A DNA stretch of 64,000 bases from Sacculina carcini. Lineage: Eukaryota; Arthropoda; Thecostraca; Sacculinidae. Numbering within the stretch: the first letter of the stretch is position 1; each line of letters starts with the position of its first letter. Positions 1,121 to 46,142 of this stretch are shown piece by piece. The notes beneath the pieces were generated by a model. It was not told the origin of the DNA, ran no database searches, and was given only the letters and a program-made list of their open reading frames with translations. Where the stretch lies: NCBI GenBank assembly GCA_916048095.2, contig OU696585.1, forward strand, positions 6,297,460 to 6,361,459. Reading direction: 5' to 3'. Position numbers and translations under genes: made by a program.

Positions 1121-2138
1121 TTAACTACTATCAAAACAATTCTGGCACTCAATCCAGTTAATCATTCATTTATAATCGTGTATAATCAATATAATCAAAC
1201 CTAGGTAACGGGAGCGGGGATCACGCCAGTCGATGCACGCCCTCGTCGACTCTCTACGTTGGTCCGACTGGCGGGGTCAATATTCTACCATCTACTCCTC
1301 GTAAACCAGCAATAGTAGAGCTATACAAATTACACCACTGTGTAGAGAATTTTCTATACTACAAGATAGGCTATATTTTAAATCGAAAAAATTTCAAAAT
1401 TCCAATCTACATTACAAATTGTATTTAAACTCCACGCGTCCGATTTTCTATACTTTTTTCTCTATTTCTCAGCAACTAAATATCACACATCTAAATAAAT
1501 AATACCATCATGCTGGCAATTTTGCTTTCTACAACACGGTATATATTTCCATTTTCCAGAGTGTATTAAAAAAGTTACGGCGGTGTGAAGTCAAAATGAC
1601 AAAGTCAAAAAGGCAAAATTAGCACTGAAAAAAGTTAATATTTTGGTAAATATTTTGGTCAATACTCCTCATAAACCAGAAATGGCACAGCCAAAAGAGA
1701 AGACTGAAATGACGTATAATTATAGGTATCGTTGTATTTTTCAATAGTTCATTATAGGTGCCGTTCAGACAGAGGTCTTCATGCAGTAATCAGAGCGCCA
1801 CCTAGTGACAACTACTGGAAGCAGAACTCGACCGTCGAGACGTGGCGGCATATCGTCGTTTGATGTTAATTTGCGGTGTTCGTTTGATGTTGATTGAAGT
1901 CCCTATTGATTCATTAACTGATTCAATGATTGATATGATTATCAGCTAGACTTATTTTAGATGCGTGTGCGAGTGTGTAAAAAGTGTATATAGTCATGAA
2001 ATGCACGAAAGTGGCCATTTGATATACATTTTTCACGTTGAGAAGCACATGAAGTCTCAAATTTATATTACTGGGTCAATTGATCAGCTCTAGTTGACCT
2101 CATCGTTCAAATAAGTCAGATCCAGATCAAAAATCTGT
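1121..2138 (+). other. U2 intergenic spacer (representative, units 1-2)
   Basis: This stands for the spacer of every unit, about 1 kb of AT-rich DNA with no convincing ORF. Relative to U2 +1 at 2139 it holds: the post-U2 tail up to 1204; a 72-bp segment resembling the retrotransposon ORF (1205-1276, about -934 to -863); AT-rich sequence; a CTCF-like motif (1795-1808, -344 to -331); a short inverted repeat ctcgaccgtcgag (1827-1839), which is ctctaccgtcgag in many other units; and an inverted repeat GGTCAA...TTGACC (2074-2099, -65 to -40) at the usual place of an snRNA proximal sequence element. I see nothing else definable in it. I could not securely identify an snRNA 3' box in the tail after U2; caaaacaattctgg, starting about 13 bp past the end, is a weak candidate. 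Confidence 0.8.
1205..1276 (+). repeat. Retrotransposon-ORF-like fragment in U2 spacer
   Basis: Read from the gta codon at 1205, 24 codons align without gaps to residues 280-303 of the full-length element ORF (14906-14977). By eye 61 of 72 bases and 20 of 24 residues match (shared core PVDARPRRLST). Of the 11 differences 8 are at third positions, 3 at first positions and none at second. The match stops abruptly on both sides. The segment is present in every unit: 1-71 (first base lies off the window) and starting at unit start minus 1 in each of the others. It looks like a remnant of a related element captured in the spacer before the array was homogenised. It has no start codon (the codon before it is TAG) and is not a gene. 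Confidence 0.85.
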
Positions 2139-2325
2139 ATCGCTTCTCGGCCTCAGGCTAAGATCAAAGTGTAGTATCTGTTCTTTTCAGCTTAATATCT
2201 GAAACGTCCCCTACATGGGGACCAGTATATTAAACTGATTTTTGCAGATTGGCGGGGTCACAGGGCTTGCTCTGTTCCTGCCGCGGGTCGACCCGGTATT
2301 GCACCACATCCGGGAACGGTCCATT
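2139..2325 (+). ncRNA. U2: U2 snRNA gene, unit 2
   Basis: Complete U2 copy with all core elements; loop IV reads GCACCAC, like the copies in units 1 and 3. Confidence 0.96.
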
Positions 2326-3343
2326 TTAACTACTATCAAAACAATTCTGGCACTCAATCCAGTTAATCATTCATTTATAATCGTGTATAATCAATATAAT
2401 CAAACCTAGGTAACGGGAGCGGGGATCACGCCAGTCGATGCACGCCCTCGTCGACTCTCTACGTTGGTCCGACTGGCGGGGTCAATATTCTACCATCTAC
2501 TCCTCGTAAACCAGCAATAGTAGAGCTATACAAATTACACCACTGTGTAGAGAATTTTCTATACTACAAGATAGGCTATATTTTAAATCGAAAAAATTTC
2601 AAAATTCCAATCTACATTACAAATTGTATTTAAACTCCACGCGTCCGATTTTCTATACTTTTTTCTCTATTTCTCAGCAACTAAATATCACACATCTAAA
2701 TAAATAATACCATCATGCTGGCAATTTTGCTTTCTACAACACGGTATATATTTCCATTTTCCAGAGTGTATTAAAAAAGTTACGGCGGTGTGAAGTCAAA
2801 ATGACAAAGTCAAAAAGGCAAAATTAGCACTGAAAAAAGTTAATATTTTGGTAAATATTTTGGTCAATACTCCTCATAAACCAGAAATGGCACAGCCAAA
2901 AGAGAAGACTGAAATGACGTATAATTATAGGTATCGTTGTATTTTTCAATAGTTCATTATAGGTGCCGTTCAGACAGAGGTCTTCATGCAGTAATCAGAG
3001 CGCCACCTAGTGACAACTACTGGAAGCAGAACTCGACCGTCGAGACGTGGCGGCATATCGTCGTTTGATGTTAATTTGCGGTGTTCGTTTGATGTTGATT
3101 GAAGTCCCTATTGATTCATTAACTGATTCAATGATTGATATGATTATCAGCTAGACTTATTTTAGATGCGTGTGCGAGTGTGTAAAAAGTGTATATAGTC
3201 ATGAAATGCACGAAAGTGGCCATTTGATATACATTTTTCACGTTGAGAAGCACATGAAGTCTCAAATTTATATTACTGGGTCAATTGATCAGCTCTAGTT
3301 GACCTCATCGTTCAAATAAGTCAGATCCAGATCAAAAATCTGT

Positions 3344-3530
3344 ATCGCTTCTCGGCCTCAGGCTAAGATCAAAGTGTAGTATCTGTTCTTTTCAGCTTAA
3401 TATCTGAAACGTCCCCTACATGGGGACCAGTATATTAAACTGATTTTTGCAGATTGGCGGGGTCACAGGGCTTGCTCTGTTCCTGCCGCGGGTCGACCCG
3501 GTATTGCACCACATCCGGGAACGGTCCATT
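3344..3530 (+). ncRNA. U2: U2 snRNA gene, unit 3
   Basis: Complete U2 copy; GCACCAC loop IV form. It is the last clean unit before the first insertion. Confidence 0.96.
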
Positions 3531-4582
3531 TTAACTACTATCAAAACAATTCTGGCACTCAATCCAGTTAATCATTCATTTATAATCGTGTATAATCAAT
3601 ATAATCAAACCTAGGTAACGGGAGCGGGGATCACGCCAGTCGATGCACGCCCTCGTCGACTCTCTACGTTGGTCCGACTGGCGGGGTCAATATTCTACCA
3701 TCTACTCCTCGTAAACCAGCAATAGTAGAGCTATACAAATTACACCACTGTGTAGAGAATTTTCTATACTACAAGATAGGCTATATTTTAAATCGAAAAA
3801 ATTTCAAAATTCCAATCTACATTACAAATTTAATTTAACTCCACGCGTCCGATTTTCTATACTTTTTTCTCTATTTCTCAGCAACTAAATATCACACATC
3901 TAAATAAATAATACCATCATGCTGGCAATTTTGCTTTCTACAACACGGTATATATTTCCATTTTCCAGAGTGTATTAAAAAGTTACGGCGGTGTGAAGTC
4001 AAAATGACAAAGTCAAAAAGGCAAAATTAGCACTGAAAAAAGTTAATATTTTGGTAAATATTTTGGTCAATACTCCTCATAAACCAGAAATGGCACAGCC
4101 AAAAGAGAAGACTGAAATGACGTATAATTATAGGTATCGTTGTATTTTTCAATAGTTCATTATAGGTGCCGTTCAGACAGAGGTCTTCATGCAGTAATCA
4201 GAGCGCCACCTAGTGACAACTACTGGAAGCAAAACTCTACCGTCGAGACGTGGCGGCATATCGTCGTTTGATGTTAATTTGCGGTGTTCGTTTGATGTTG
4301 ATTGAAGTCCCTATTGATTCATTAACTGATTCAATGATTGATATGATTATCAGCTAGACTTATTTTAGATGCGTGTGCGAGTGTGTAAAAAGTGTATATA
4401 GTCATGAAATGCACGAAAGTGGCCATTTGATATACATTTTTCACGTTGAGAAGCACATGAAGTCTCAAATTTATATTACTGGGTCAATTGATCAGCTCTA
4501 GTTGACCTCATCGTTCAAATAAGTCAGATCCAGATCAAAAATCTGTATCGCTTCTCGGCCTCAGGCTAAGATCAAAGTGTAG

Positions 4583-6713
4583 ATCAAAGGCTAAGATCAT
4601 CTGTCACAGCGAGTCTCAGCTCTCTCTGGCACTGTCTCAGGTGCACGATATCTGCGCGTGGGCTGGTCTCTCCATCAATGCCAGCAAATGCGCAGTATTG
4701 TCACCTGTCGCGCCTCTCAGCACTCCAGCTGTCCTCAATGGCGTGCCTCTGCCCTCACTCGAGGCGGAGGGGCAGTACAGGTACCTGGGGAGACCGACTG
4801 GCAGGTCTTTCCTGCACGCCGACATGGATCAGCTCATGTCCGATGTTCGCCGTAAATCTAATCTTATTCTGCATTCTGCTCTTGCCCCCTGGCAAAAACT
4901 TGACTCCCTTCGCTCTTTTATCACTCCTATTCTCACTCACCCTCTTCGTCTAGGCCTCCTCACTAAAACAAGCCTTAGCCGACTACAACGAGAAATCGTG
5001 TGGAAGGTGAAGGGCTTGCTCAATCTACCGTCTCGCTCTACTCTTCACTATCTTTTCTCTCCTACTTCTTGTGGCGGCATTGGGCTGAGTGATCTGTGTC
5101 AAGAGGCGGACATCTTGCTTGTTTCGTCATCGCTGCAGCTATTGCACTGCAAAGACGCTCGTGTAGCGACCCTGGCACTCGATCAGTTGCGGCGTGTCGT
5201 TGCCGGCAGGGTGCAGTCGGAGCCCACCACACAGCAGCTGGTGGACTACCTCAACGGGTGCCGAATGCGTCAAGGAGGCGGCTACGCCACGCGCACGTCG
5301 CGCACGCGAGTCGCCTTCAGGACCATTATGGCCAGATCGGCTCTCCGTTGGGGACCTACTGCGGACGGTGTACCCGCACTGTTCCTCAACGGCAAGGAGG
5401 TGTCTCCGCGCAAGTCATCTGCGATCATCCGAGATGAAGTGCGCAAATGGCGGCAGGCGAAGCTGGTTGGGCTGCCGCACCAGGGCAAAGTGATGTCCAG
5501 TGTGGCGGAGCAGCCAGTTAGCTCGCACTACACCTACAACGGTAGTTTCACGCGGTTTGCCGAGTGGCGCTTTGTGCACCGGGCCCGTCTGGGTCTAGTG
5601 CCACTCAATGGCTACTCCCGTGGAGCGCAGGCAGTCAATACCAGCTGTCGCCGTTGTGGGTACGCCAATGAGACCCTCCCGCACGTGCACAGGCGCAGGC
5701 ACAATGCTATTCTGGCACGCCTGGTGCGCGCGCTGCCGGCTGCTGATCGGACAGGTGGAAACACTCGCGTCAACCAACGCGTTCCTGGCAGCACGTCGAC
5801 ACTACGGCCTGACCTCATCGTCACTCGAGGCAACCAGGTCGTAATTGTCGACGTCACAGTGGCGTTTGAGAACGGCTGTCAGGCATTCCAGTCAGCAGCT
5901 GATGAAAAGGTCGCCAAATACGCGGAGTTGGCGGCCGAAATACGGTCCCGGGGCAAGCAGGTGGATCTGCTAGCCTTTGTTGTGGGCTCGCTCGGCACCT
6001 GGTGGAAAGGTAACGAGCGTGTCCTGGGCCGCCTGCACATCAGTCGTCGCTACAGCCGACTCATGCGACGGCTGATGGTGTCGGAGACGCTGCGGTGGTC
6101 ACGTGACGTGTATGTCGAACATGTCACGGGCCATCGGCAGTACGCGGAGCCCGCTCCCAGAGCGGACACATATCTTCTCTAAGCACACTCACACACACTC
6201 ACATCTCTTATCAATATGTATGCCTTAGTCATATTGCGTGTGTTATGTATATGTATGTATGTGTGTATGTATGTATGTGTGTGTGTATGTATGTACCAGG
6301 CGGTGTCCTGCGACATTTATAATTGTTATTGAATTGTCTAATGATATATGTATGTGTATGTATTTGCGAATGTGTGCGTGTGTGTGTGTATGTGTGGATG
6401 TGTGTGTGTGTATGTATGTGCCAGGCGGTGTCCTGCGACATTTATAACTGTTATTGAATTGTCTAATGATATATGTATGTGTATTTATTGCGAATGTATG
6501 TGCGTCTGTGTGTGTGTGTGTGTGTGTGTGTGTATAGGTATGTGTGTGTGTGTGTAGGAGTGTGCGTGTGTATTGTCATGTGACAATTACAAATATTCTT
6601 TTCAATGTAACTTAAATCTTAATGATACCCATCTACCACATGCCATGTGGCATTGTTTGTATACCTGGCAATTGTGTAAATTTGTTTTTTTATCATGTGC
6701 TAATAAAAGAAAA
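4583..6713 (+). mobile_element. 5'-truncated U2-specific non-LTR element, copy T1
   Basis: Element sequence proper begins at about 4597 and matches E1 from about 17019 on, so the 5' UTR, the zinc fingers and most of the reverse transcriptase, including the FADD box, are missing. The 14 nt at 4583-4596 (atcaaaggctaaga) are not element sequence but rearranged pieces of the U2 target just upstream. The 3' end (aataaaagaaaa, then U2 tatctg) is the same as in full-length copies. 5' truncation is the usual outcome of incomplete target-primed reverse transcription. Confidence 0.95.
4597..6182 (+). pseudogene. Truncated retrotransposon ORF, C-terminal part (T1)
   Basis: An open frame equivalent to residues 984-1520 of the full-length protein, ending at the same stop. 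It keeps the end of the RT palm and thumb and the restriction-like endonuclease (RPDLIV, VVIVDVTV, then DEKVAKY). It lacks 10 residues that in full-length copies supply the second half of the CCHC knuckle: CRRCGYANETLPH is followed directly by VHRRRHN, so the final Cys is lost. The first internal Met is not at the fragment start, and the RT catalytic box is absent, so this cannot encode a working transposition protein. Confidence 0.92.
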
Positions 6714-9119: not shown

Positions 9120-11250
9120 ATCAAAGGCTAAGATCATCTGTCACAGCGAGTCTCAGCTCTCTCTGGCACTGTCTCAGGTGCACGATATCTGCGCGTGGGC
9201 TGGTCTCTCCATCAATGCCAGCAAATGCGCAGTATTGTCACCTGTCGCGCCTCTCAGCACTCCAGCTGTCCTCAATGGCGTGCCTCTGCCCTCACTCGAG
9301 GCGGAGGGGCAGTACAGGTACCTGGGGAGACCGACTGGCAGGTCTTTCCTGCACGCCGACATGGATCAGCTCATGTCCGATGTTCGCCGTAAATCTAATC
9401 TTATTCTGCATTCTGCTCTTGCCCCCTGGCAAAAACTTGACTCCCTTCGCTCTTTTATCACTCCTATTCTCACTCACCCTCTTCGTCTAGGCCTCCTCAC
9501 TAAAACAAGCCTTAGCCGACTACAACGAGAAATCGTGTGGAAGGTGAAGGGCTTGCTCAATCTACCGTCTCGCTCTACTCTTCACTATCTTTTCTCTCCT
9601 ACTTCTTGTGGCGGCATTGGGCTGAGTGATCTGTGTCAAGAGGCGGACATCTTGCTTGTTTCGTCATCGCTGCAGCTATTGCACTGCAAAGACGCTCGTG
9701 TAGCGACCCTGGCACTCGATCAGTTGCGGCGTGTCGTTGCCGGCAGGGTGCAGTCGGAGCCCACCACACAGCAGCTGGTGGACTACCTCAACGGGTGCCG
9801 AATGCGTCAAGGAGGCGGCTACGCCACGCGCACGTCGCGCACGCGAGTCGCCTTCAGGACCATTATGGCCAGATCGGCTCTCCGTTGGGGACCTACTGCG
9901 GACGGTGTACCCGCACTGTTCCTCAACGGCAAGGAGGTGTCTCCGCGCAAGTCATCTGCGATCATCCGAGATGAAGTGCGCAAATGGCGGCAGGCGAAGC
10001 TGGTTGGGCTGCCGCACCAGGGCAAAGTGATGTCCAGTGTGGCGGAGCAGCCAGTTAGCTCGCACTACACCTACAACGGTAGTTTCACGCGGTTTGCCGA
10101 GTGGCGCTTTGTGCACCGGGCCCGTCTGGGTCTAGTGCCACTCAATGGCTACTCCCGTGGAGCGCAGGCAGTCAATACCAGCTGTCGCCGTTGTGGGTAC
10201 GCCAATGAGACCCTCCCGCACGTGCACAGGCGCAGGCACAATGCTATTCTGGCACGCCTGGTGCGCGCGCTGCCGGCTGCTGATCGGACAGGTGGAAACA
10301 CTCGCGTCAACCAACGCGTTCCTGGCAGCACGTCGACACTACGGCCTGACCTCATCGTCACTCGAGGCAACCAGGTCGTAATTGTCGACGTCACAGTGGC
10401 GTTTGAGAACGGCTGTCAGGCATTCCAGTCAGCAGCTGATGAAAAGGTCGCCAAATACGCGGAGTTGGCGGCCGAAATACGGTCCCGGGGCAAGCAGGTG
10501 GATCTGCTAGCCTTTGTTGTGGGCTCGCTCGGCACCTGGTGGAAAGGTAACGAGCGTGTCCTGGGCCGCCTGCACATCAGTCGTCGCTACAGCCGACTCA
10601 TGCGACGGCTGATGGTGTCGGAGACGCTGCGGTGGTCACGTGACGTGTATGTCGAACATGTCACGGGCCATCGGCAGTACGCGGAGCCCGCTCCCAGAGC
10701 GGACACATATCTTCTCTAAGCACACTCACACACACTCACATCTCTTATCAATATGTATGCCTTAGTCATATTGCGTGTGTTATGTATATGTATGTATGTG
10801 TGTATGTATGTATGTGTGTGTGTATGTATGTACCAGGCGGTGTCCTGCGACATTTATAATTGTTATTGAATTGTCTAATGATATATGTATGTGTATGTAT
10901 TTGCGAATGTGTGCGTGTGTGTGTGTATGTGTGGATGTGTGTGTGTGTATGTATGTGCCAGGCGGTGTCCTGCGACATTTATAACTGTTATTGAATTGTC
11001 TAATGATATATGTATGTGTATTTATTGCGAATGTATGTGCGTCTGTGTGTGTGTGTGTGTGTGTGTGTGTATAGGTATGTGTGTGTGTGTGTAGGAGTGT
11101 GCGTGTGTATTGTCATGTGACAATTACAAATATTCTTTTCAATGTAACTTAAATCTTAATGATACCCATCTACCACATGCCATGTGGCATTGTTTGTATA
11201 CCTGGCAATTGTGTAAATTTGTTTTTTTATCATGTGCTAATAAAAGAAAA
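9120..11250 (+). mobile_element. 5'-truncated U2-specific non-LTR element, copy T2
   Basis: Duplicate of copy T1 with the identical junction filler (9120-9133) and 3' end, created with the 4537-bp block duplication rather than by a second insertion. Confidence 0.95.
9134..10719 (+). pseudogene. Truncated retrotransposon ORF, C-terminal part (T2)
   Basis: Predicted protein identical to that of T1: the C-terminal 527 codons with the endonuclease motifs kept, the CCHC knuckle broken by the same 30-bp loss, and no RT catalytic box. Confidence 0.92.
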
Positions 11251-13656: not shown

Positions 13657-13666
13657 TGGTAAGTAC
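13657..13666 (+). promoter_or_regulatory. 5' splice-site-like sequence at element 5' end
   Basis: The element starts tggtaagtac. GGTAAGTA matches 8 of the 9 consensus positions around a U1 binding site (exon G, intron GTAAGTA). It is present in all five full-length copies and absent from uninterrupted U2. It may be an accident of the 5' end or a real donor for removing the 5' leader; no transcript evidence is available. Confidence 0.35.
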
Positions 13667-13717
13667 TGTCTAGGCTCTTGTTTTTTTCTGGGAATAGGTT
13701 CTCGTTTACGCCGCAAG

Positions 13718-13991
13718 GTATTGCATTGAACGGCCCAACCTCTACCTACTCTTCCCCTTTTTCTGTTGTACTCTATTCTCACTTCTTTGCTGTCTACTCT
13801 CACTTCTTTTTTGCTCTCTACTCTCACTTCTTTTTTGCTCTCTACTCTCACTTCTTTTTTGCTCTCTACTCTCACTTCTCTTGTCTCCTGCTACTCTACC
13901 TCTCTCTTCGCTCCTCGCTCCTCTACCTCTCTCTTCGCTCCTCTACTCCTCGCTACTCTTTTACGCTTCCACTACACTGAACCCTGGCCGG
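13718..13991 (+). repeat. AG-free polypyrimidine tract with 24-bp tandem repeats
   Basis: This part of the 5' UTR is almost pure C and T and has no AG dinucleotide for 274 nt, up to ccggag at 13988-13993. It contains three exact 24-bp repeats (13793-13816, 13817-13840, 13841-13864; each tctactctcacttctttttt plus gctc) flanked by degenerate copies. It resembles a long 3' splice-site tract or a translation-enhancing leader. On the reverse strand it gives a repetitive Glu/Lys/Ser/Val ORF that I take to be spurious. Confidence 0.7.
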
Positions 13992-14068
13992 AGGTGGGAG
14001 GCGGTGTTTTGTGGCTGTGATCGGCGTCTGTGTTTGTGTGTTTGGCTGTGATCGGTGTGTGTATCGTG

Positions 14069-17000
14069 ATGTCGGCCAACACGCCACTTGTGGCGCATCA
14101 ATCCACAACCCTGGACGCCGACGGCGATGTTTTGCGCGTCTTCCTGCCGCTGCCGGACGTGACAGCCTGCCCATACGAAGACTGCGGCGCCACGTACGCC
14201 ATCACCCGACGTGGTGGCTACACGCAGGTACGTGCCAGCATCCTGCGCCATCTGGAGGCGGCCCACGCCGATGTGCGCACATCAGTGTACATGTGCAGGC
14301 GGTGCCGACAACCGATGGGCGTGCGACCGTCGACCCACCGGTGTCGCCAGCAAACACCCCCGGCAGAGGCGCACACAGCGGTGCTGGCGCCCAGTTTTAC
14401 CTGCCGGCACTGTCACCAGCGCTTCACAAATTCTCGAGCGCTGGTCAACCACACAAACGTGTGCCGGCGCCAGCAGTCAACAGGAGCAAACCGGCGACAG
14501 CGACCGTCGGATCCACAGCAGCAACAGAGGAGGCGGCCAACACACCAGCGGCAGACCAATGGCGAGAGACACACACCACCCTCACACTCACAATCACCAC
14601 AATCAGAAACACCACCTCCGAGTCCACCAACACCACCACCTCACGTAATGTCCCCACGCCCACCACTCCTTCCCACACCACCACTCCTTCGCACACCACC
14701 GCTTCTTCCCACACCACTGCTTCTTCCCACTCTAGCACTCCCACTATCACCTCTTCGTCCACATCAAATCTCTTTTTCATACACACCATCTCCGCTCACA
14801 CCCCGCATTCCAACCTTCACATCACCTACCACGCCAACACCCACTCACACATACACCGTATCTCCTCCCACATCCCCACCTACCACCTACACTACTCTCG
14901 CCATGGTACCGGGGGCGGGGCTCGCGCCAGTCGACGCGCGACCTCGTCGACTATCAACGTTTGTACGACTGGCGGGGGGTGTGCGGGAGCGGCCAACTGC
15001 AAGCGACACTGCCACGAGACCAGCACCGTCCGTCTCGCCGCCGCGCGGTCGCTGGACAGCAGCCGACCCCGCTGCACCGCCAGCGTCACCGCGGTCATAC
15101 CTGGCGGCACTCATCGGGTCAATCTCCCCCTCGCCCCCGCCGCGCCCGCCGCGACTGCCGTCTTCATCTCCACCATCATCATCACCTTCGTCATCATCGT
15201 CATCCTCTTCGCCATCATCACCACGACCATCATCGTCGCAATCGTCCTCGTCATCGTCGTCATCTTCTTCCTCACCAGCATTACATATACGATCTCAACA
15301 TTCTCCATCAACACCACCAGCACGTACACATCACCACACGTCGCCGGCAAACAATGTCGGCAACGCTCCGCGTGCTTCCGGCGTGCCATCGTCGAGACCG
15401 GCGCGCCGGCAGAAACGACAACCACAACAGGTGAGCACTGCCAGGGGGAGTCAGTCGCAGCAGCGAGCGTCGGTGCCGCCCACACACAGACCACACAACA
15501 ACCACCACACAAGAAACACCACAAACAGACCACACAACAACCACCACACAAGAAGCACCACAAACATGCACACGAACACACTCCCTCGCACGTCCACGCC
15601 CTCATCACACTCAACACTGACACCCAACAACACCCGACAACACACATTCATTACACCCAACAGGTATGCGCTGCTGTCTCAATCTGATGACAACAGTGCA
15701 TCACCATCAGTCTCACAACAAAACCACACAAGCCAAATCACTTCACCAGGGCGGCGCCGGGTTGTTGGAGAGCAGTCAAATGGACCCACACACCAACACC
15801 GAAACAATCACACATCACTACAGAACACGCTCACCCAGTTCCACGAACCACTCACACAAATAAACTGTAACACACCATTCTGCATACTTGACATACTCAT
15901 TAACACACTCACACAGCAAGCACGGGACCTCAGCGGCCTCAACACACGACACCAAAACCACCCAAGACAAAACACGAACACCCACACAAACAATCATACA
16001 CACACGCACACCGCACAATTCAGCCACCACACAGAACACCACGACCACAGACAGATGTGGCGCAGCCCACCATATGATCCGGTAGTTGCAGCGAAAATTC
16101 AACGCGACTACCGGACCGGCAAGGCTGTCGTTTACAGACAGCTGGTGGGTGAGACAACACCACCATGTGACATTGAGCCCTTGGTGGTAGGCAGGCATTT
16201 CTGTGGCGAGACTGCCTCGTCGCCGAGATGGTCTGACCGCCCAACGTCCGTGCCAGACATTACACCTACACCAGCAACCACACTATCACAACCCATCACA
16301 ACCGCTGAGATCCAGCGCAGAATAAACAACACACAAAACACAACACCGGGTCCAGATGGGTTGAGGTATTCAGACTGGAAACGCCTCGATCCTGACTGCT
16401 CAATCCTCACAGCCATGTTCAATGCATGCCGACTGACTGGGAGGACTCCCACCGCGTGGAAGTCTTCTCGAACCATCCTTCTACACAAGGGTGGTGACCC
16501 CCAAGAGCTGAAGAGCTGGCGACCGATCGCTCTTGGCAACACAATCGCCAAGCTCTACGCGGGTATTTGGGCCGATCGCCTCTCACACTGGGCTGAAACA
16601 CACAACATCCTCACACACTCACAAAAAGGTTTCCGTCCCTTCGATGGCGTGCTGGAACACAACTTTGTGGTACAGTCTGCCATCGCCAGGGCTCGGAAAT
16701 CCAACACATCGACACACATCACGTTCATTGACATAAAAAACGCATTCGGCTCTGTATCACACGCACTCCTGTGGGAGACACTCAGCTTGCTGGGTGTCCC
16801 CACAGACACACTTTCAATCATCACAGACATATACACCAACAGCACCACAACATTCACCACACAACGAGGTGTATCGGCTCCCATCCCACAAATTGGAGGT
16901 GTCAGACAGGGATGTCCGCTCAGTGGTATTCTCTTTGCCTTCGCAATGGAGCCACTGCTGCGGAGCTTGACCGAGGCAGGCGTTGAACATCTCGCCTTTG

Positions 17001-18631
17001 CTGATGACGTCGCCCTCATCTGTCACAGCGAGTCTCAGCTCTCTCTGGCACTGTCTCAGGTGCACGATATCTGCGCGTGGGCTGGTCTCTCCATCAATGC
17101 CAGCAAATGCGCAGTATTGTCACCTGTCGCGCCTCTCAGCACTCCAGCTGTCCTCAATGGCGTGCCTCTGCCCTCACTCGAGGCGGAGGGGCAGTACAGG
17201 TACCTGGGGAGACCGACTGGCAGGTCTTTCCTGCACGCCGACATGGATCAGCTCATGTCCGATGTTCGCCGCAAATCTAATCTTATTCTGCATTCTGCTC
17301 TTGCCCCCTGGCAAAAACTTGACTCCCTTCGCTCTTTTATCACTCCTATTCTCACTCACCCTCTTCGTCTAGGCCTCCTCACTAAAACAAGCCTTAGCCG
17401 ACTACAACGAGAAATCGTGTGGAAGGTGAAGGGCTTGCTCAATCTACCGTCTCGCTCTACTCTTCACTATCTTTTCTCTCCTACTTCTTGTGGCGGCATT
17501 GGGCTGAGTGATCTGTGTCAAGAGGCGGACATCTTGCTTGTTTCGTCATCGCTGCAGCTATTGCACTGCAAAGACGCTCGTGTAGCGACCCTGGCACTCG
17601 ATCAGTTGCGGCGTGTCGTTGCCGGCAGGGTGCAGTCGGAGCCCACCACACAGCAGCTGGTGGACTACCTCAACGGGTGCCGAATGCGTCAAGGAGGCGG
17701 CTACGCCACGCGCACGTCGCGCACGCGAGTCGCCTTCAGGACCATTATGGCCAGATCGGCTCTCCGTTGGGGACCTACTGCGGACGGTGTACCCGCACTG
17801 TTCCTCAACGGCAAGGAGGTGTCTCCGCGCAAGTCATCTGCGATCATCCGAGATGAAGTGCGCAAATGGCGGCAGGCGAAGCTGGTTGGGCTGCCGCACC
17901 AGGGCAAAGTGATGTCCAGTGTGGCGGAGCAGCCAGTTAGCTCGCACTACACCTACAACGGTAGTTTCACGCGGTTTGCCGAGTGGCGCTTTGTGCACCG
18001 GGCCCGTCTGGGTCTAGTGCCACTCAATGGCTACTCCCGTGGAGCGCAGGCAGTCAATACCAGCTGCCGCCGTTGTGGGTACGCCAATGAGACCCTCCCG
18101 CACGTGCTCACACACTGTCGTGTGCACAGCGCCGCACAGCAACACAGGCACAATGCTATTCTGGCACGCCTGGTGCGCGCGCTGCCGGCTGCTGATCGGA
18201 CAGGTGGAAACACTCGCGTCAACCAACGCGTTCCTGGCAGCACGTCGACACTACGGCCTGACCTCATCGTCACTCGAGGCAACCAGGTCGTAATTGTCGA
18301 CGTCACAGTGGCGTTTGAGAACGGCTGTCAGGCATTCCAGTCAGCAGCTGATGAAAAGGTCGCCAAATACGCGGAGTTGGCGGCCGAAATACGGTCCCGG
18401 GGCAAGCAGGTGGATCTGCTAGCCTTTGTTGTGGGCTCGCTCGGCACCTGGTGGAAAGGTAACGAGCGTGTCCTGGGCCGCCTGCACATCAGTCGTCGCT
18501 ACAGCCGACTCATGCGACGGCTGATGGTGTCGGAGACGCTGCGGTGGTCACGTGACGTGTATGTCGAACATGTCACGGGCCATCGGCAGTACGCGGAGCC
18601 CGCTCCCAGAGCGGACACATATCTTCTCTAA
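14069..18631 (+). CDS. Retrotransposon polyprotein: zinc fingers, RT, restriction-like endonuclease (E1)
   Basis: A 1520-residue protein expected to bind U2 DNA, nick it and prime reverse transcription there. The ATG at 14069 is the first in frame (open codons upstream to 14030 begin with GTG) and has G at -3. Residues 34-66 form a C-x4-C-x21-H-x4-H finger; C76/C79/H90/C92 is a second possible finger; C112-x2-C115-x12-H128-x3-C132 is a third. Residues about 150-680 are Pro/Ser/Thr/His-rich with a poly-Ser run and a duplicated 13-residue segment. RT motifs: SWRPIALGN (W817), FIDIKNAFGSVSH (D888), GVRQGCPLSG (R946), FADD 977-980, YLG 1045-1047. CCHC knuckle: C1333-x2-C1336-x8-H1345-x4-C1350. 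Endonuclease: P1397-D1398, D1411, K1430. The catalytic box is canonical here, so E1 is a candidate active copy. Confidence 0.95.
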   Translation: MSANTPLVAHQSTTLDADGDVLRVFLPLPDVTACPYEDCGATYAITRRGGYTQVRASILRHLEAAHADVRTSVYMCRRCRQPMGVRPSTHRCRQQTPPAEAHTAVLAPSFTCRHCHQRFTNSRALVNHTNVCRRQQSTGANRRQRPSDPQQQQRRRPTHQRQTNGERHTPPSHSQSPQSETPPPSPPTPPPHVMSPRPPLLPTPPLLRTPPLLPTPLLLPTLALPLSPLRPHQISFSYTPSPLTPRIPTFTSPTTPTPTHTYTVSPPTSPPTTYTTLAMVPGAGLAPVDARPRRLSTFVRLAGGVRERPTASDTATRPAPSVSPPRGRWTAADPAAPPASPRSYLAALIGSISPSPPPRPPRLPSSSPPSSSPSSSSSSSSPSSPRPSSSQSSSSSSSSSSSPALHIRSQHSPSTPPARTHHHTSPANNVGNAPRASGVPSSRPARRQKRQPQQVSTARGSQSQQRASVPPTHRPHNNHHTRNTTNRPHNNHHTRSTTNMHTNTLPRTSTPSSHSTLTPNNTRQHTFITPNRYALLSQSDDNSASPSVSQQNHTSQITSPGRRRVVGEQSNGPTHQHRNNHTSLQNTLTQFHEPLTQINCNTPFCILDILINTLTQQARDLSGLNTRHQNHPRQNTNTHTNNHTHTHTAQFSHHTEHHDHRQMWRSPPYDPVVAAKIQRDYRTGKAVVYRQLVGETTPPCDIEPLVVGRHFCGETASSPRWSDRPTSVPDITPTPATTLSQPITTAEIQRRINNTQNTTPGPDGLRYSDWKRLDPDCSILTAMFNACRLTGRTPTAWKSSRTILLHKGGDPQELKSWRPIALGNTIAKLYAGIWADRLSHWAETHNILTHSQKGFRPFDGVLEHNFVVQSAIARARKSNTSTHITFIDIKNAFGSVSHALLWETLSLLGVPTDTLSIITDIYTNSTTTFTTQRGVSAPIPQIGGVRQGCPLSGILFAFAMEPLLRSLTEAGVEHLAFADDVALICHSESQLSLALSQVHDICAWAGLSINASKCAVLSPVAPLSTPAVLNGVPLPSLEAEGQYRYLGRPTGRSFLHADMDQLMSDVRRKSNLILHSALAPWQKLDSLRSFITPILTHPLRLGLLTKTSLSRLQREIVWKVKGLLNLPSRSTLHYLFSPTSCGGIGLSDLCQEADILLVSSSLQLLHCKDARVATLALDQLRRVVAGRVQSEPTTQQLVDYLNGCRMRQGGGYATRTSRTRVAFRTIMARSALRWGPTADGVPALFLNGKEVSPRKSSAIIRDEVRKWRQAKLVGLPHQGKVMSSVAEQPVSSHYTYNGSFTRFAEWRFVHRARLGLVPLNGYSRGAQAVNTSCRRCGYANETLPHVLTHCRVHSAAQQHRHNAILARLVRALPAADRTGGNTRVNQRVPGSTSTLRPDLIVTRGNQVVIVDVTVAFENGCQAFQSAADEKVAKYAELAAEIRSRGKQVDLLAFVVGSLGTWWKGNERVLGRLHISRRYSRLMRRLMVSETLRWSRDVYVEHVTGHRQYAEPAPRADTYLL

Positions 18632-19146
18632 GCACACTCACACACACTCACATCTCTTATCAATATGTATGCCTTAGTCATATTGCGTGTGTTATGTATA
18701 TGAATGTATGTGTGTATGTATGTGTGTGTGTATGTATGTACCAGGCGGTGTCCTGCGACATTTATAATTGTTATTGAATTGTCTAATGATATATGTATGT
18801 GTATGTATTTGCGAATGTGTGCGTGTGTGTGTGTATGTGTGGATGTGTGTATGTATGTGCCAGGCGGTGTCCTGCGACATTTATAATTGTTATTGAATTG
18901 TCTAATGATATATGTATGTGTATTTATTTGCGAATGTATGTGCGTCTGTGTGTGTGTGTGTGTGTGTATAGGTATGTGTGTGTGTGTGTAGGAGTGTGCG
19001 TGTGTATTGTCATGTGACAATTACAAATATTCTTTTCAATGTAACTTAAATCTTAATGATACCCATCTACCACATGCCATGTGGCATTGTTTGTATACCT
19101 GGCAATTGTGTAAATTTGTTTTTTATCATGTGCTAATAAAAGAAAA
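18632..19146 (+). other. Element 3' UTR (E1): TG-rich repeats and hairpins
   Basis: After the stop comes a TG/TATG-rich stretch with a 119-bp tandem duplication: the segment starting ccaggcggtgtcctgcgaca occurs at 18741 and 18860. Two perfect inverted repeats follow, ATTGTCA-TG-TGACAAT at 19006-19021 and CCACATG-C-CATGTGG at 19070-19084. The end is tgctaataaaagaaaa. In R2-type elements the 3' UTR RNA is recognised by the RT for priming, so these hairpins are candidates for that role. The same layout is present in all copies, including truncated ones. Confidence 0.7.
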
Positions 19147-20315
19147 TATCTGTGCTTTTCAGCTTAATATCTGAAACGTCCCCTACATGGGGACCAGTAT
19201 ATTAAACTGATTTTTGCAGATTGGCGGGGTCACAGGGCTTGCTCTGTTCCTGCCGCGGGTCGACCCGGTATTGCACTACATCCGGGAACGGTCCATTTTA
19301 ACTACTATCAAAACAATTCTGGCACTCAATCCAGTTAATCATTCATTTATAATCGTGTATAATCAATATAATCAAACCTAGGTAACGGGAGCGGGGATCA
19401 CGCCAGTCGATGCACGCCCTCGTCGACTCTCTACGTTGGTCCGACTGGCGGGGTCAATATTCTACCATCTACTCCTCGTAAACCAGCAATAGTAGAGCTA
19501 TACAAATTACACCACTGTGTAGAGAATTTTCTGTACTACAAGATAGGCTATATTTTAAATCGAAAAAATTTCAAAATTCCAATCTACATTACAAATTGTA
19601 TTTAAACTCCACGCGTCCGATTTTCTATACTTTTTTCTCTATTTCTCAGCAACTAAATATCACACATCTAAATAAATAATACCATCATGCTGGCAATTTT
19701 GCTTTCTACAACACGGTATATATTTCCATTTTCCAGAGTGTATTAAAAAAGTTACGGCGGTGTGAAGTCAAAATGACAAAGTCAAAAAGGCAAAATTAGC
19801 ACTGAAAAAAGTTAATATTTTGGTAAATATTTTGGTCAATACTCCTCATAAACCAGAAATGGCACAGCCAAAAGAGAAGACTGAAATGACGTATAATTAT
19901 AGGTATCGTTGTATTTTTCAATAGTTCATTATAGGTGCCGTTCAGACAGAGGTCTTCATGCAGTAATCAGAGCGCCACCTAGTGACAACTACTGGAAGCA
20001 AAACTCTACCGTCGAGACGTGGCGGCATATCGTCGTTTGATGTTAATTTGCGGTGTTCGTTTGATGTTGATTGAAGTCCCTATTGATTCATTAACTGATT
20101 CAATGATTGATATGATTATCAGCTAGACTTATTTTAGATGCGTGTGCGAGTGTGTAAAAAGTGTATATAGTCATGAAATGCACGAAAGTGGCCATTTGAT
20201 ATACATTTTTCACGTTGAGAAGCACATGAAGTCTCAAATTTATATTACTGGGTCAATTGATCAGCTCTAGTTGACCTCATCGTTCAAATAAGTCAGATCC
20301 AGATCAAAAATCTGT

Positions 20316-27734: not shown

Positions 27735-29198
27735 TTAACTACTATCAAAACAATTCTGGCACTCAATCCAGTTAATCATTCATTTATAATCGTGTATAAT
27801 CAATATAATCAAACCTAGGTAACGGGAGCGGGGATCACGCCAGTCGATGCACGCCCTCGTCGACTCTCTACGTTTGTCCGACTGGCGGGGTCAATATTCT
27901 ACCATCTACTCCTCGTAAACCAGCAATAGTAGAGCTATACAAATTACACCACTGTGTAGAGAATTTTCTATACTACAAGATAGGCTATATTTTAAATCGA
28001 AAAAATTTCAAAATTCCAATCTACATTACAAATTTAATTTAACTCCACGCGTCCGATTTTCTATACTTTTTTCTCTATTTCTCAGCAACTAAATATCACA
28101 CATCTAAATAAATAATACCATCATGCTGGCAATTTTGCTTTCTACAACACGGTATATATTTCCATTTTCCAGAGTGTATTAAAAAGTTACGGCGGTGTGA
28201 AGTCAAAATGACAAAGTCAAAAAGGCAAAATTAGCACTGAAAAAAGTTAATATTTTGGTAAATATTTTGGTCAATACTCCTCATAAACCAGAAATGGCAC
28301 AGCCAAAAGAGAAGACTGAAATGACGTATAATTATAGGTATCGTTGTATTTTTCAATAGTTCATTATAGGTGCCGTTCAGACAGAGGTCTTCATGCAGTA
28401 ATCAGAGCGCCACCTAGTGACAACTACTGGAAGCAAAACTCTACCGTCGAGACGTGGCGGCATATCGTCGTTTGATGTTAATTTGCGGTGTTCGTTTGAT
28501 GTTGATTGAAGTCCCTATTGATTCATTAACTGATTCAATGATTGATATGATTATCAGCTAGACTTATTTTAGATGCGTGTGCGAGTGTGTAAAAAGTGTA
28601 TATAGTCATGAAATGCACGAAAGTGGCCATTTGATATACATTTTTCACGTTGAGAAGCACATGAAGTCTCAAATTTATATTACTGGGTCAATTGATCAGC
28701 TCTAGTTGACCTCATCGTTCAAATAAGTCAGATCCAGATCAAAAATCTGTATCGCTTCTCGGCCTCAGGCTAAGATCAAAGTGTAGTGGTAAGTACTGTC
28801 TAGGCTCTTGTTTTTTTCTGGGAATAGGTTCTCGTTTACGCCGCAAGGTATTGCATTGAACGGCCCAACCTCTACCTACTCTTCCCCTTTTTCTGTTGTA
28901 CTCTATTCTCACTTCTTTGCTGTCTACTCTCACTTCTTTTTTGCTCTCTACTCTCACTTCTTTTTTGCTCTCTACTCTCACTTCTTTTTTGCTCTCTACT
29001 CTCACTTCTCTTGTCTCCTGCTACTCTACCTCTCTCTTCGCTCCTCGCTCCTCTACCTCTCTCTTCGCTCCTCTACTCCTCGCTACTCTTTTACGCTTCC
29101 ACTACACTGAACCCTGGCCGGAGGTGGGAGGCGGTGTTTTGTGGCTGTGATCGGCGTCTGTGTTTGTGTGTTTGGCTGTGATCGGTGTGTGTATCGTG

Positions 29199-32100
29199 AT
29201 GTCGGCCAACACGCCACTTGTGGCGCATCAATCCACAACCCTGGACGCCGACGGCGATGTTTTGCGCGTCTTCCTGCCGCTGCCGGACGTGACAGCCTGC
29301 CCATACGAAGACTGCGGCGCCACGTACGCCATCACCCGACGTGGTGGCTACACGCAGGTACGTGCCAGCATCCTGCGCCATCTGGAGGCGGCCCACGCCG
29401 ATGTGCGCACATCAGTGTACATGTGCAGGCGGTGCCGACAACCGATGGGCGTGCGACCGTCGACCCACCGGTGTCGCCAGCAAACACCCCCGGCAGAGGC
29501 GCACACAGCGGTGCTGGCGCCCAGTTTTACCTGCCGGCACTGTCACCAGCGCTTCACAAATTCTCGAGCGCTGGTCAACCACACAAACGTGTGCCGGCGC
29601 CAGCAGTCAACAGGAGCAAACCGGCGACAGCGACCGTCGGATCCACAGCAGCAACAGAGGAGGCGGCCAACACACCAGCGGCAGACCAATGGCGAGAGAC
29701 ACACACCACCCTCACACTCACAATCACCACAATCAGAAACACCACCTCCGAGTCCACCAACACCACCACCTCACGTAATGTCCCCACGCCCACCACTCCT
29801 TCCCACACCACCACTCCTTCGCACACCACCGCTTCTTCCCACACCACTGCTTCTTCCCACTCTAGCACTCCCACTATCACCTCTTCGTCCACATCAAATC
29901 TCTTTTTCATACACACCATCTCCGCTCACACCCCGCATTCCAACCTTCACATCACCTACCACGCCAACACCCACTCACACATACACCGTATCTCCTCCCA
30001 CATCCCCACCTACCACCTACACTACTCTCGCCATGGTACCGGGGGCGGGGCTCGCGCCAGTCGACGCGCGACCTCGTCGACTATCAACGTTTGTACGACT
30101 GGCGGGGGGTGTGCGGGAGCGGCCAACTGCAAGCGACACTGCCACGAGACCAGCACCGTCCGTCTCGCCGCCGCGCGGTCGCTGGACAGCAGCCGACCCC
30201 GCTGCACCGCCAGCGTCACCGCGGTCATACCTGGCGGCACTCATCGGGTCAATCTCCCCCTCGCCCCCGCCGCGCCCGCCGCGACTGCCGTCTTCATCTC
30301 CACCATCATCATCACCTTCGTCATCATCGTCATCCTCTTCGCCATCATCACCACGACCATCATCGTCGCAATCGTCCTCGTCATCGTCGTCATCTTCTTC
30401 CTCACCAGCATTACATATACGATCTCAACATTCTCCATCAACACCACCAGCACGTACACATCACCACACGTCGCCGGCAAACAATGTCGGCAACGCTCCG
30501 CGTGCTTCCGGCGTGCCATCGTCGAGACCGGCGCGCCGGCAGAAACGACAACCACAACAGGTGAGCACTGCCAGGGGGAGTCAGTCGCAGCAGCGAGCGT
30601 CGGTGCCGCCCACACACAGACCACACAACAACCACCACACAAGAAACACCACAAACAGACCACACAACAACCACCACACAAGAAGCACCACAAACATGCA
30701 CACGAACACACTCCCTCGCACGTCCACGCCCTCATCACACTCAACACTGACACCCAACAACACCCGACAACACACATTCATTACACCCAACAGGTATGCG
30801 CTGCTGTCTCAATCTGATGACAACAGTGCATCACCATCAGTCTCACAACAAAACCACACAAGCCAAATCACTTCACCAGGGCGGCGCCGGGTTGTTGGAG
30901 AGCAGTCAAATGGACCCACACACCAACACCAAAACAATCACACATCACTACAGAACACGCTCACCCAGTTCCACGAACCACTCACACAAATAAACTGTAA
31001 CACACCATTCTGCATACTTGACATACTCATTAACACACTCACACAGCAAGCACGGGACCTCAGCGGCCTCAACACACGACACCAAAACCACCCAAGACAA
31101 AACACGAACACCCACACAAACAATCATACACACACGCACACCGCACAATTCAGCCACCACACAGAACACCACGACCACAGACAGATGTGGCGCAGCCCAC
31201 CATATGATCCGGTAGTTGCAGCGAAAATTCAACGCGACTACCGGACCGGCAAGGCTGTCGTTTACAGACAGCTGGTGGGTGAGACAACACCACCATGTGA
31301 CATTGAGCCCTTGGTGGTAGGCAGGCATTTCTGTGGCGAGACTGCCTCGTCGCCGAGATGGTCTGACCGCCCAACGTCCGTGCCAGACATTACACCTACA
31401 CCAGCAACCACACTATCACAACCCATCACAACCGCTGAGATCCAGCGCAGAATAAACAACACACAAAACACAACACCGGGTCCAGATGGGTTGAGGTATT
31501 CAGACTGGAAACGCCTCGATCCTGACTGCTCAATCCTCACAGCCATGTTCAATGCATGCCGACTGACTGGGAGGACTCCCACCGCGTGGAAGTCTTCTCG
31601 AACCATCCTTCTACACAAGGGTGGTGACCCCCAAGAGCTGAAGAGCTGGCGACCGATCGCTCTTGGCAACACAATCGCCAAGCTCTACGCGGGTATTTGG
31701 GCCGATCGCCTCTCACACTGGGCTGAAACACACAACATCCTCACACACTCACAAAAAGGTTTCCGTCCCTTCGATGGCGTGCTGGAACACAACTTTGTGG
31801 TACAGTCTGCCATCGCCAGGGCTCGGAAATCCAACACATCGACACACATCACGTTCATTGACATAAAAAACGCATTCGGCTCTGTATCACACGCACTCCT
31901 GTGGGAGACACTCAGCTTGCTGGGTGTCCCCACAGACACACTTTCAATCATCACAGACATATACACCAACAGCACCACAACATTCACCACACAACGAGGT
32001 GTATCGGCTCCCATCCCACAAATTGGAGGTGTCAGACAGGGATGTCCGCTCAGTGGTATTCTCTTTGCCTTCGCAATGGAGCCACTGCTGCGGAGCTTGA

Positions 32101-36834: not shown

Positions 36835-38239
36835 TTAACTACTATCAAAACAATTCTGGCACTCAATCCAGTTAATCATTCATTTATAATCGTGTATAAT
36901 CAATATAATCAAACCTAGGTAACGGGAGCGGGGATCACGCCAGTCGATGCACGCCCTCGTCGACTCTCTACGTTGGTCCGACTGGCGGGGTCAATATTCT
37001 ACCATCTACTCCTCGTAAACCAGCAATAGTAGAGCTATACAAATTACACCACTGTGTAGAGAATTTTCTATACTACAAGATAGGCTATATTTTAAATCGA
37101 AAAAATTTCAAAATTCCAATCTACATTACAAATTTAATTTAACTCCACGCGTCCGATTTTCTATACTTTTTTCTCTATTTCTCAGCAACTAAATATCACA
37201 CATCTAAATAAATAATACCATCATGCTGGCAATTTTGCTTTCTACAACACGGTATATATTTCCATTTTCCAGAGTGTATTAAAAAGTTACGGCGGTGTGA
37301 AGTCAAAATGACAAAGTCAAAAAGGCAAAATTAGCACTGAAAAAAGTTAATATTTTGGTAAATATTTTGGTCAATACTCCTCATAAACCAGAAATGGCAC
37401 AGCCAAAAGAGAAGACTGAAATGACGTATAATTATAGGTATCGTTGTATTTTTCAATAGTTCATTATAGGTGCCGTTCAGACAGAGGTCTTCATGCAGTA
37501 ATCAGAGCGCCACCTAGTGACAACTACTGGAAGCAGAACTCGACCGTCGAGACGTGGCGGCATATCGTCGTTTGATGTTAATTTGCGGTGTTCGTTTGAT
37601 GTTGATTGAAGTCCCTATTGATTCATTAACTGATTCAATGATTGATATGATTATCAGCTAGACTTATTTTAGATGCGTGTGCGAGTGTGTAAAAAGTGTA
37701 TATAGTCATGAAATGCACGAAAGTGGCCATTTGATATACATTTTTCACGTTGAGAAGCACATGAAGTCTCAAATTTATATTACTGGGTCAATTGATCAGC
37801 TCTAGTTGACCTCATCGTTCAAATAAGTCAGATCCAGATCAAAAATCTGTATCGCTTCTCGGCCTCAGGCTAAGATCAAAGTGTAGTGGTAAGTACTGTC
37901 TAGGCTCTTGTTTTTTTCTGGGAATAGGTTCTCGTTTACGCCGCAAGGTATTGCATTGAACGGCCCAACCTCTACCTACTCTTCCCCTTTTTCTGTTGTA
38001 CTCTATTCTCACTTCTTTGCTGTCTACTCTCACTTCTTTTTCTCTGTCTTTGTTTTTCTTTGTCTACTCTCACTTCTCTTGTCTCCTACTGCTCTACCTC
38101 TCTCTTCGCTCCTCTACTCCTCGCTACTCTTTTACGCTTCCACTACACTGAACCCTGGCCGGAGGTGGGAGGCGGTGTTTTGTGGCTGTGATCGGCGTCT
38201 GTGTTTGTGTGTTTGGCTGTGATCGGTGTGTGTATCGTG

Positions 38240-44679: not shown

Positions 44680-46142
44680 TTAACTACTATCAAAACAATT
44701 CTGGCACTCAATCCAGTTAATCATTCATTTATAATCGTGTATAATCAATATAATCAAACCTAGGTAACGGGAGCGGGGATCACGCCAGTCGATGCACGCC
44801 CTCGTCGACTCTCTACGTTGGTCCGACTGGCGGGGTCAATATTCTACCATCTACTCCTCGTAAACCAGCAATAGTAGAGCTATACAAATTACACCACTGT
44901 GTAGAGAATTTTCTATACTACAAGATAGGCTATATTTTAAATCGAAAAAATTTCAAAATTCCAATCTACATTACAAATTTAATTTAACTCCACGCGTCCG
45001 ATTTTCTATACTTTTTTCTCTATTTCTCAGCAACTAAATATCACACATCTAAATAAATAATACCATCATGCTGGCAATTTTGCTTTCTACAACACGGTAT
45101 ATATTTCCATTTTCCAGAGTGTATTAAAAAGTTACGGCGGTGTGAAGTCAAAATGACAAAGTCAAAAAGGCAAAATTAGCACTGAAAAAAGTTAATATTT
45201 TGGTAAATATTTTGGTCAATACTCCTCATAAACCAGAAATGGCACAGCCAAAAGAGAAGACTGAAATGACGTATAATTATAGGTATCGTTGTATTTTTCA
45301 ATAGTTCATTATAGGTGCCGTTCAGACAGAGGTCTTCATGCAGTAATCAGAGCGCCACCTAGTGACAACTACTGGAAGCAGAACTCGACCGTCGAGACGT
45401 GGCGGCATATCGTCGTTTGATGTTAATTTGCGGTGTTCGTTTGATGTTGATTGAAGTCCCTATTGATTCATTAACTGATTCAATGATTGATATGATTATC
45501 AGCTAGACTTATTTTAGATGCGTGTGCAAGTGTGTAAAAAGTGTATATAGTCATGAAATGCACGAAAGTGGCCATTTGATATACATTTTTCACGTTGAGA
45601 AGCACATGAAGTCTCAAATTTATATTACTGGGTCAATTGATCAGCTCTAGTTGACCTCATCGTTCAAATAAGTCAGATCCAGATCAAAAATCTGTATCGC
45701 TTCTCGGCCTCAGGCTAAGATCAAAGTGTAGTGGTAAGTACTGTCTAGGCTCTTGTTTTTTCTGGGAATAGGTTCTCGTTTACGCCGCAAGGTATTGCAT
45801 TGAACGGCCCAACCTCTACCTACTCTTCCCCTTTTTCTGTTGTACTCTATTCTCACTTCTTTGCTGTCTGCTCTCACTTCTTTTTTGCTCTCTACTCTCA
45901 CTTCTTTTTTGCTCTCTACTCTCACTTCTTTTTTGCTCTCTACTCTCACTTCTCTTGTCTCCTGCTACTCTACCTCTCTCTTCGCTCCTCGCTCCTCTAC
46001 CTCTCTCTTCGCTCCTCTACTCCTCGCTACTCTTTTACGCTTCCACTACACTGAACCCTGGCCGGAGGTGGGAGGCGGTGTTTTGTGGCTGTGATCGGCG
46101 TCTGTGTTTGTGTGTTTGGCTGTGATCGGTGTGTGTATCGTG

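Follow-up and report, generated by a model that had tools for sequence, protein, structure and literature searches.

The U2 snRNA gene array of Sacculina carcini carries, in every repeat unit of the stretch analysed here, a 72-bp relic of a retrotransposon open reading frame (ORF) in the spacer that follows the U2 gene. The stretch, referred to below as the window, is 64,000 nucleotides long and forms part of the array on contig C20 of a 264-Mb assembly of 43 contigs. The relic is homologous to the coding sequence of a Utopia-like element that is resident in the same array, and from the sequence comparisons its identification as a captured fragment of an older relative, later spread through the array, is well supported. 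It is probably a repair scar of that relative, formed by two joins and then homogenised by concerted evolution. The other U2 loci that were read lack the segment, a different relic is found after U2 on contig C11, and young events corresponding to each half of the proposed route are present in the array.

The U2 repeat unit is 1205 bp long, with slight length variation among copies (Table 1). Rfam gives 27 U2 matches in the window, one of them cut by the window end; 19 of the 26 uncut matches are intact, and seven have had their 5′ part replaced by an element. The array reading covered about 229 kb of unique array sequence out of roughly 0.86 Mb, the latter being the span of the matches. Part of each unit is a cassette found also at U2 loci elsewhere in the genome, which encompasses about 360 bp upstream, the U2 gene and at most 18 bp downstream; the match to L076 stops at unit position 1126. 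Near the left edge of this cassette, at 1777-1830 and at the same place in each unit, lies GCGCCACCTAGTG, a candidate that we take to resemble an insect CTCF-type site.

Table 1. Coordinates of the features discussed, given as positions in the window
Feature	Coordinates	Strand	Remarks
Reference U2 repeat unit	1205..2409	+	tandem units
U2 snRNA gene of reference unit (unit 935-1125)	2139..2329	+	Rfam RF00004, 162.9 bits
Cassette common to other U2 loci (unit 573-1143)	1777..2347	+	73-79% identity to L066, L074, L075, L076
Relic, 72 bp of Utopia-type ORF (unit 1-72)	1205..1276	+	61/72 to 14906-14977; 66/72 to L064, L079
Spacer copy with T at position 57 (element-state base)	27819..27890	+	
5′-truncated element joined at U2 target	4583..6713	+	unit 970 to element 3359, 14-nt gap; second copy 9120-11250
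Utopia-like element, full length, lying in U2 between GTGTAGT and TATCTG	13658..19146	+	unit interrupted at 971, left and right
Element ORF, 1533 codons from GTG, first in-frame ATG 14069	14030..18631	+	RVT_1 (PF00078, E 3.3e-35)
Native copy of the 72-bp piece in the element ORF	14906..14977	+	also at 30036, 39077, 46980, 57288

The resident element can be classed as a Utopia-like non-LTR retrotransposon by its target site and layout. It interrupts the unit 37 nt into U2, in agreement with the Utopia site near nt 38/39, and like Utopia it has a single ORF with a reverse transcriptase domain. Five full-length copies in the window split U2 at this same point and carry the ORF piece. Two more copies are 5′-truncated, begin at element position 3359 and lack the 72-bp piece; these are ordinary truncations with no spacer join. 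Pfam models gave no hit, up to an E value of 1, for a C-terminal restriction-like endonuclease or for N- and C-terminal zinc fingers in the ORF. A PD-D/ExK-like stretch, read by eye against the motif, may be a candidate for the former, and C2H2-like spacing is visible in the sequence.

The termini of the element are intron-like. As seen at 13658-13668 and 19110-19165, it starts with GGTAAGT and ends with TGCTAATA, followed by U2 sequence TCTGTTCTTTTCAG, with TCTGTGCTTTTCAG after the first copy; the start is retained in the dispersed copies L063 and L064 and altered in L068. A second, overlapping open frame of 558 codons is found in all five full-length copies (14011-15687, 29141-30817, 38182-39858, 46085-47761 and 56393-58069) and is perhaps a by-product of biased composition.

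The preliminary description of this DNA reported a gap-free match between the start of the unit and the element ORF, and this holds: 61 of 72 bases and 20 of 24 residues agree, with 3, 0 and 8 changes at first, second and third codon positions, respectively. The binomial probability is 0.009 for at least eight of 11 changes at third positions and 0.012 for none of 11 at second positions. The codon numbers given, 280-303, are correct when counted from the ATG at 14069, and become 293-316 from the GTG. The piece is indeed present in every U2 unit of the window, as 26 complete copies and one cut by the window start, and it begins 81 bp past U2 in all 26 matches that are not cut by the window end. 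Four of the ORF copies in the window match it at 61/72 and the one at 39077 at 62/72. Chance similarity is practically impossible and was rejected, as the best of 2000 dinucleotide shuffles reached 40/72 against the element; the best among 132 other 72-mers of the unit (positions 74-934) reached 36/72.

Among the 26 complete spacer copies in the window 25 are identical, a uniformity that is explained by homogenisation. The T at position 57 of the remaining copy recurs outside the window in L005 and in a rearranged copy in L045, and these may be either ancestral variants or products of conversion from elements. Two array rearrangements beyond the window (L029/L030 and L045/L047) contain a cut or altered copy of the segment. 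Four of the five spacer letters just to its left agree with the diverged elements L062 and L063, and the left edge, read generously, may lie about 5 bp earlier, for a total of about 77 bp. The element 3′ end, typical of a target-primed copy, is missing from the segment, and both of its ends are internal to the ORF; it is thus not an ordinary truncated insertion. When the unit was compared with the element and its relatives, the rest of the spacer gave no significant match beyond the 72 bp, the remaining spacer-side matches being U2 or cassette sequence, or short. The spacer body itself found only C20 places among the best 40 of 2906 candidates in the genome.

Diverged elements off the array carry the piece within their own ORF, namely L062 and L079 (C11), L063 and L064 (C22) and L068 (C6), as does the element ORF sequence of a mosaic at the array edge (L078). 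It had been allowed earlier that the segment might prove absent from related elements and so be of host origin, and these copies speak against that. The other reservation, that it might be a widespread unrelated repeat, is addressed in part: there is no non-element copy among the best 40 of 367 candidates of one genome search with the segment, all of which are on C20, or among the best 40 of 360 of a further search, which include six places off C20 (on C6, C11 and C22). The array fills most of these best-40 matches, and other copies may be missed.

In the elements read the 72 bp occur as 11 haplotypes, of which nine were compared with the spacer copy in detail. The spacer copy agrees at 66 of 72 positions with L064 and L079, at 63 with L078, L068, L063 and L046, at 62 with L062 and L049, and at 61 with the window element; the two haplotypes outside this comparison agree at 62 and 61. 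At positions 4, 16, 33 and 57 the spacer has a base that none of the nine shares. The six differences between spacer and L064 comprise three silent and three amino-acid-changing ones (codon positions 2/0/4), which places the constraint mainly on the element side and gives more precision to the earlier proposal that the sequences diverged under protein-coding constraint on at least one side. The codon-position pattern by itself would not give the direction of transfer. Piece and flanks were further compared among five elements. The 72 bp upstream can be aligned among them, with a mean identity of 0.888, and cannot be aligned to the spacer; the piece has a mean pairwise identity of 0.906, and the 72 bp downstream 0.728. 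The idea that the piece is a uniquely conserved linker island was dropped, since the upstream 72 bp are well conserved too. A tree of the 72 bp is weak, with a support of 0.225 for the grouping of spacer and L079. The region of the piece gave no match in the older elements L059-L061, so the rooting failed, and the direction rests on the U2 paralogues and on the ORF context.

Reverse capture, in which an ancestral element would have taken the piece from a U2 spacer, is highly improbable. Nothing specific speaks for it, and the codon-position bias alone would fit it too, but the piece lies within an ORF with common upstream flanks in diverged elements, including elements off the C20 array, and none of the six other U2 loci that were read has it. 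A transfer from element to spacer is well supported by these comparisons. The capture from a related older element with later spread, as originally proposed, is thus borne out by a piece native to diverged ORFs, a spacer copy nearer to L064 and L079 than to the window element, and the U2 loci without it.

Two of the dispersed elements retain parts of their target. In L063 (reverse strand, about 3684, read together with L069) and L064 (at 424) the copy starts with U2 nucleotide 1 or with the base preceding it, and U2 1-37 stands ahead of the element; L063 has about 22 nt of U2 past the element 3′ end, as read in L069. A target-site duplication was sought around L063 and none was found. The arrangement in these two copies suggests an RNA initiated at the U2 start site and reading through.

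The U2 loci outside the array were sought with the C11 U2 region, and the best 40 of 439 candidates contain at least six of them off C20. Two of the six are split by an element and were each seen as two matches, and the 3′ side was read in all six. The relic segment is found downstream of U2 in none of these. Three of them, all on C11 (L065, L066 and L077), harbor instead a different, non-overlapping ORF fragment in sense orientation after U2; it corresponds to element 2171-2748 in L065 and L066, with 2313-2420 missing, and was matched over 2171-2635 in L077. L065 and L077 are the two that are split by an element. No element piece is found in about 1.5 kb downstream of U2 in L074, L075 and L076, nor in the 1.3 kb read downstream of a seventh, element-split U2 remnant (L071). 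Among L066, L074, L075 and L076 pairwise comparison takes the common cassette to between 39 and 72 bp past U2; the flank of L066 in common with L074 and L075 stops 60-61 bp after U2, and its recognisable element match starts 96 bp after U2 by DNA and 77 by protein. On the simplest reading of these flanks, the piece is a gain of the C20 spacer, and a similar event would have taken place at C11.

The off-array loci have peculiarities of their own. In all four for which the 5′ half was read, GTAGTT (GTATTT in L074) replaces GTAGTA in the branch-site-binding stretch (L066:2295-2354, L074:1084-1143, L075:1120-1179, L076:1100-1159), and the altered base adjoins the element insertion point; they could be variant U2 genes, pseudogenes or cases of target-site escape. 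The dispersed U2 cassette starts at the same base, ACTAGCCTCTCACTGCATGCAG, in L075 (773) and L076 (741), with unrelated left flanks, and the same letters occur in L066 (1936) and L074 (725), with homology continuing further left. It is as if the cassette moves as a unit.

Illegitimate joins between unit and element are visible in the array itself, where 58 loci and the window were tiled with both. In the first (J1; L001, L057 and L058), unit position 1149, 24 bp past U2, is joined to element 1391. In the second (J2; L045 and L047), unit position 62, inside the segment, leads through CCGGGAACGGTCCAT, 15 nt identical to the U2 3′ end, to element 1647; the switch points share the letters TCCG and TCCAT. 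One more patch includes the string GCAGATT, which occurs once in the unit, within U2, and is absent from the element. In the third (J3; L029 and L030), element 3815 is joined through a 13-nt filler to unit position 39, again inside the segment. Each is a single event that was duplicated later, with identical flanks, L001 having the coordinates of J1. These joins are younger than the relic, and they provide each half of a two-join route as well as duplication of the product. Otherwise the tiling shows insertions of the ordinary type at the U2 target, full-length or 5′-truncated. Additional 5′ ends lie at or near the target, with the element joined to unit 972 in L080 and to unit 938 in L082; the 5′ end in L081 runs to unit 973 and then has 38 bases without a match. 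At the left array edge, L078:779-6588 is a tandem mosaic with a 2-kb repeat that contains 19 bp of U2 and internal pieces of the element in scrambled order (2562-3548 and 723-1337); its joins lie at the U2 target or within the element, or lead to unidentified sequence.

Four breakpoints fall within a short distance after U2: the left edge of the relic at 80 bp, J1 at 24, J2 at 140-142 and the right side of J3 at 119. The simulated probability of finding four within 126 of 1014 bp is 0.007, and that for five is 0.001, both for a post hoc cluster whose count leaves out the right edge of the relic (152 bp) and the L078 joins and whose simulation ignores the need to keep U2 intact. The clustering between 24 and 142 bp past U2 is a lead.

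From these events a route to the relic can be proposed. An older relative of the resident element would have entered one of the U2 genes in the ancestral array. A first illegitimate join, of the J1 or J2 type, would then have fused the 3′ flank of an intact U2 gene, at a point 80 bp beyond the gene, to the interior of an element ORF, in a manner akin to the upstream target deletions made during target-primed reverse transcription or break repair. A second join, of the J3 type, would have ended the element sequence after 72 bp and led back into the spacer. Since the U2 gene was left intact, the altered unit would have been viable and able to spread, through unequal exchange and conversion. We infer the two steps, and the link of the joins to repair following the element's own cleavage, from the kinds of junction described above.

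The main alternative, considerably less likely, is a one-step origin. A double-strand break in the spacer could have been patched with 72 bp copied from element DNA, cDNA or RNA, and no intermediate leading to the relic was seen among the sequences read; a one-step filler of 72 bp would look identical. The internal position of both relic ends would suit such a filler, as would the short templated patches at the array junctions, and templated insertions at breaks are on record, in the accessible part of one report (PMC11724301). The right edge of the relic, TGGCGGGGTCA, is an 11-base string that occurs also in U2 (unit 1046), as though U2 had been used as a bridge; it is compatible with a two-join scar and a single filler alike. 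Against the single patch, the C11 relic in L065 and L066 has an internal gap and covers about 580 bp in element coordinates, and the array contains separate events for both halves of the two-join route.

A more specific suggestion, which we consider unlikely, concerns the source of the first join. The reverse transcriptase of the element, on leaving its RNA early, might jump to 3′-extended or mature U2 RNA, with the U2 3′ flank, 24-142 bp beyond the gene, as the preferred joining site. If so, the cDNA would rebuild an intact U2 upstream of the insertion and the parasite would heal its target on entry, the spacer relics of C20 and C11 being leftovers of such healing joins.

An exapted function, in which the fragment would be kept as a homology handle, a source of small RNAs or a regulatory site, is very unlikely from what its sequence suggests. 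The segment follows every U2 of the window, and two array rearrangements break inside it, and both observations speak for a function. Its longest perfect runs to elements are nevertheless short: 12-13 bases with the three haplotypes most frequent in the array, 14-16 with the other copies of the array and its edge and with most dispersed ones, and at most 17 (L063). The breaks inside the segment join element 1647 and 3815 and miss its homologue at 1249-1320, which tells against the earlier suggestion of a recombination handle. The idea that it supplies small RNAs against the element fares no better by sequence alone, as the segment is in sense orientation to both U2 and the ORF, and read-through RNA from U2 could therefore not pair with element mRNA. 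The equal numbers of changing and silent differences from L064 are compatible with no constraint on the spacer side.

The preferred reading, a two-join scar spread by concerted evolution, would mean that the marks left on a host gene family by a gene-specific retrotransposon are not limited to its insertions, as illegitimate joins alter the spacer and concerted evolution spreads the change. The two types of U2 locus in this genome differ in their relics, and comparable joins can still be seen as single events, so that one assembly allows the path from insertion to spacer scar to be traced. It also becomes testable whether snRNA templates are used for jumps by elements with snRNA genes as their targets.

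The comparison with known systems starts with Utopia, a group of U2 snRNA gene-specific non-LTR retrotransposons of the NeSL clade (Kojima and Jurka 2015, PMC4640811). According to the accessible part of that paper, Utopia shares with the present element the U2 site, the downstream U2 beginning at nt 39 in its numbering, a single ORF with reverse transcriptase, and the presence of several copies in a U2 array. Disrupted U2 genes are described there; among the features covered in that part, an ORF relic in the spacer of every intact unit is found only here. For R2, large upstream rDNA deletions and template jumps onto U12 snRNA and tRNA are described in the available portion of PMC3414825, and microhomology and extra bases at 5′ junctions in that of PMC2718515. 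The likeness lies in an element 5′ side joined to upstream repeat DNA or small-RNA sequence, the snRNA-derived filler being U2 here and U12 in R2; in contrast to the R2 cases of PMC3414825, as far as that portion extends, one product without either element end has here come to occupy the U2 units that were read. Chimeric retrogenes that combine LINEs with small RNAs, as outlined in the accessible text on tripartite chimeras in Magnaporthe (PMC2104539) and U6 chimeras in mammals (PMC4476161), have similar template switches between element and small RNA, to be compared with the U2-derived filler in L045, whereas in the present case the snRNA gene is also the insertion target. In the open-licence literature, as far as titles and abstract openings of the papers found for this subject show, such a spacer relic is not described. 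Elements of this kind are known, and the relic can be placed as a variant among the repair scars of target-specific elements, a process also known; what sets it apart is that it sits in the very gene repeat targeted by the element, with the half-steps visible.
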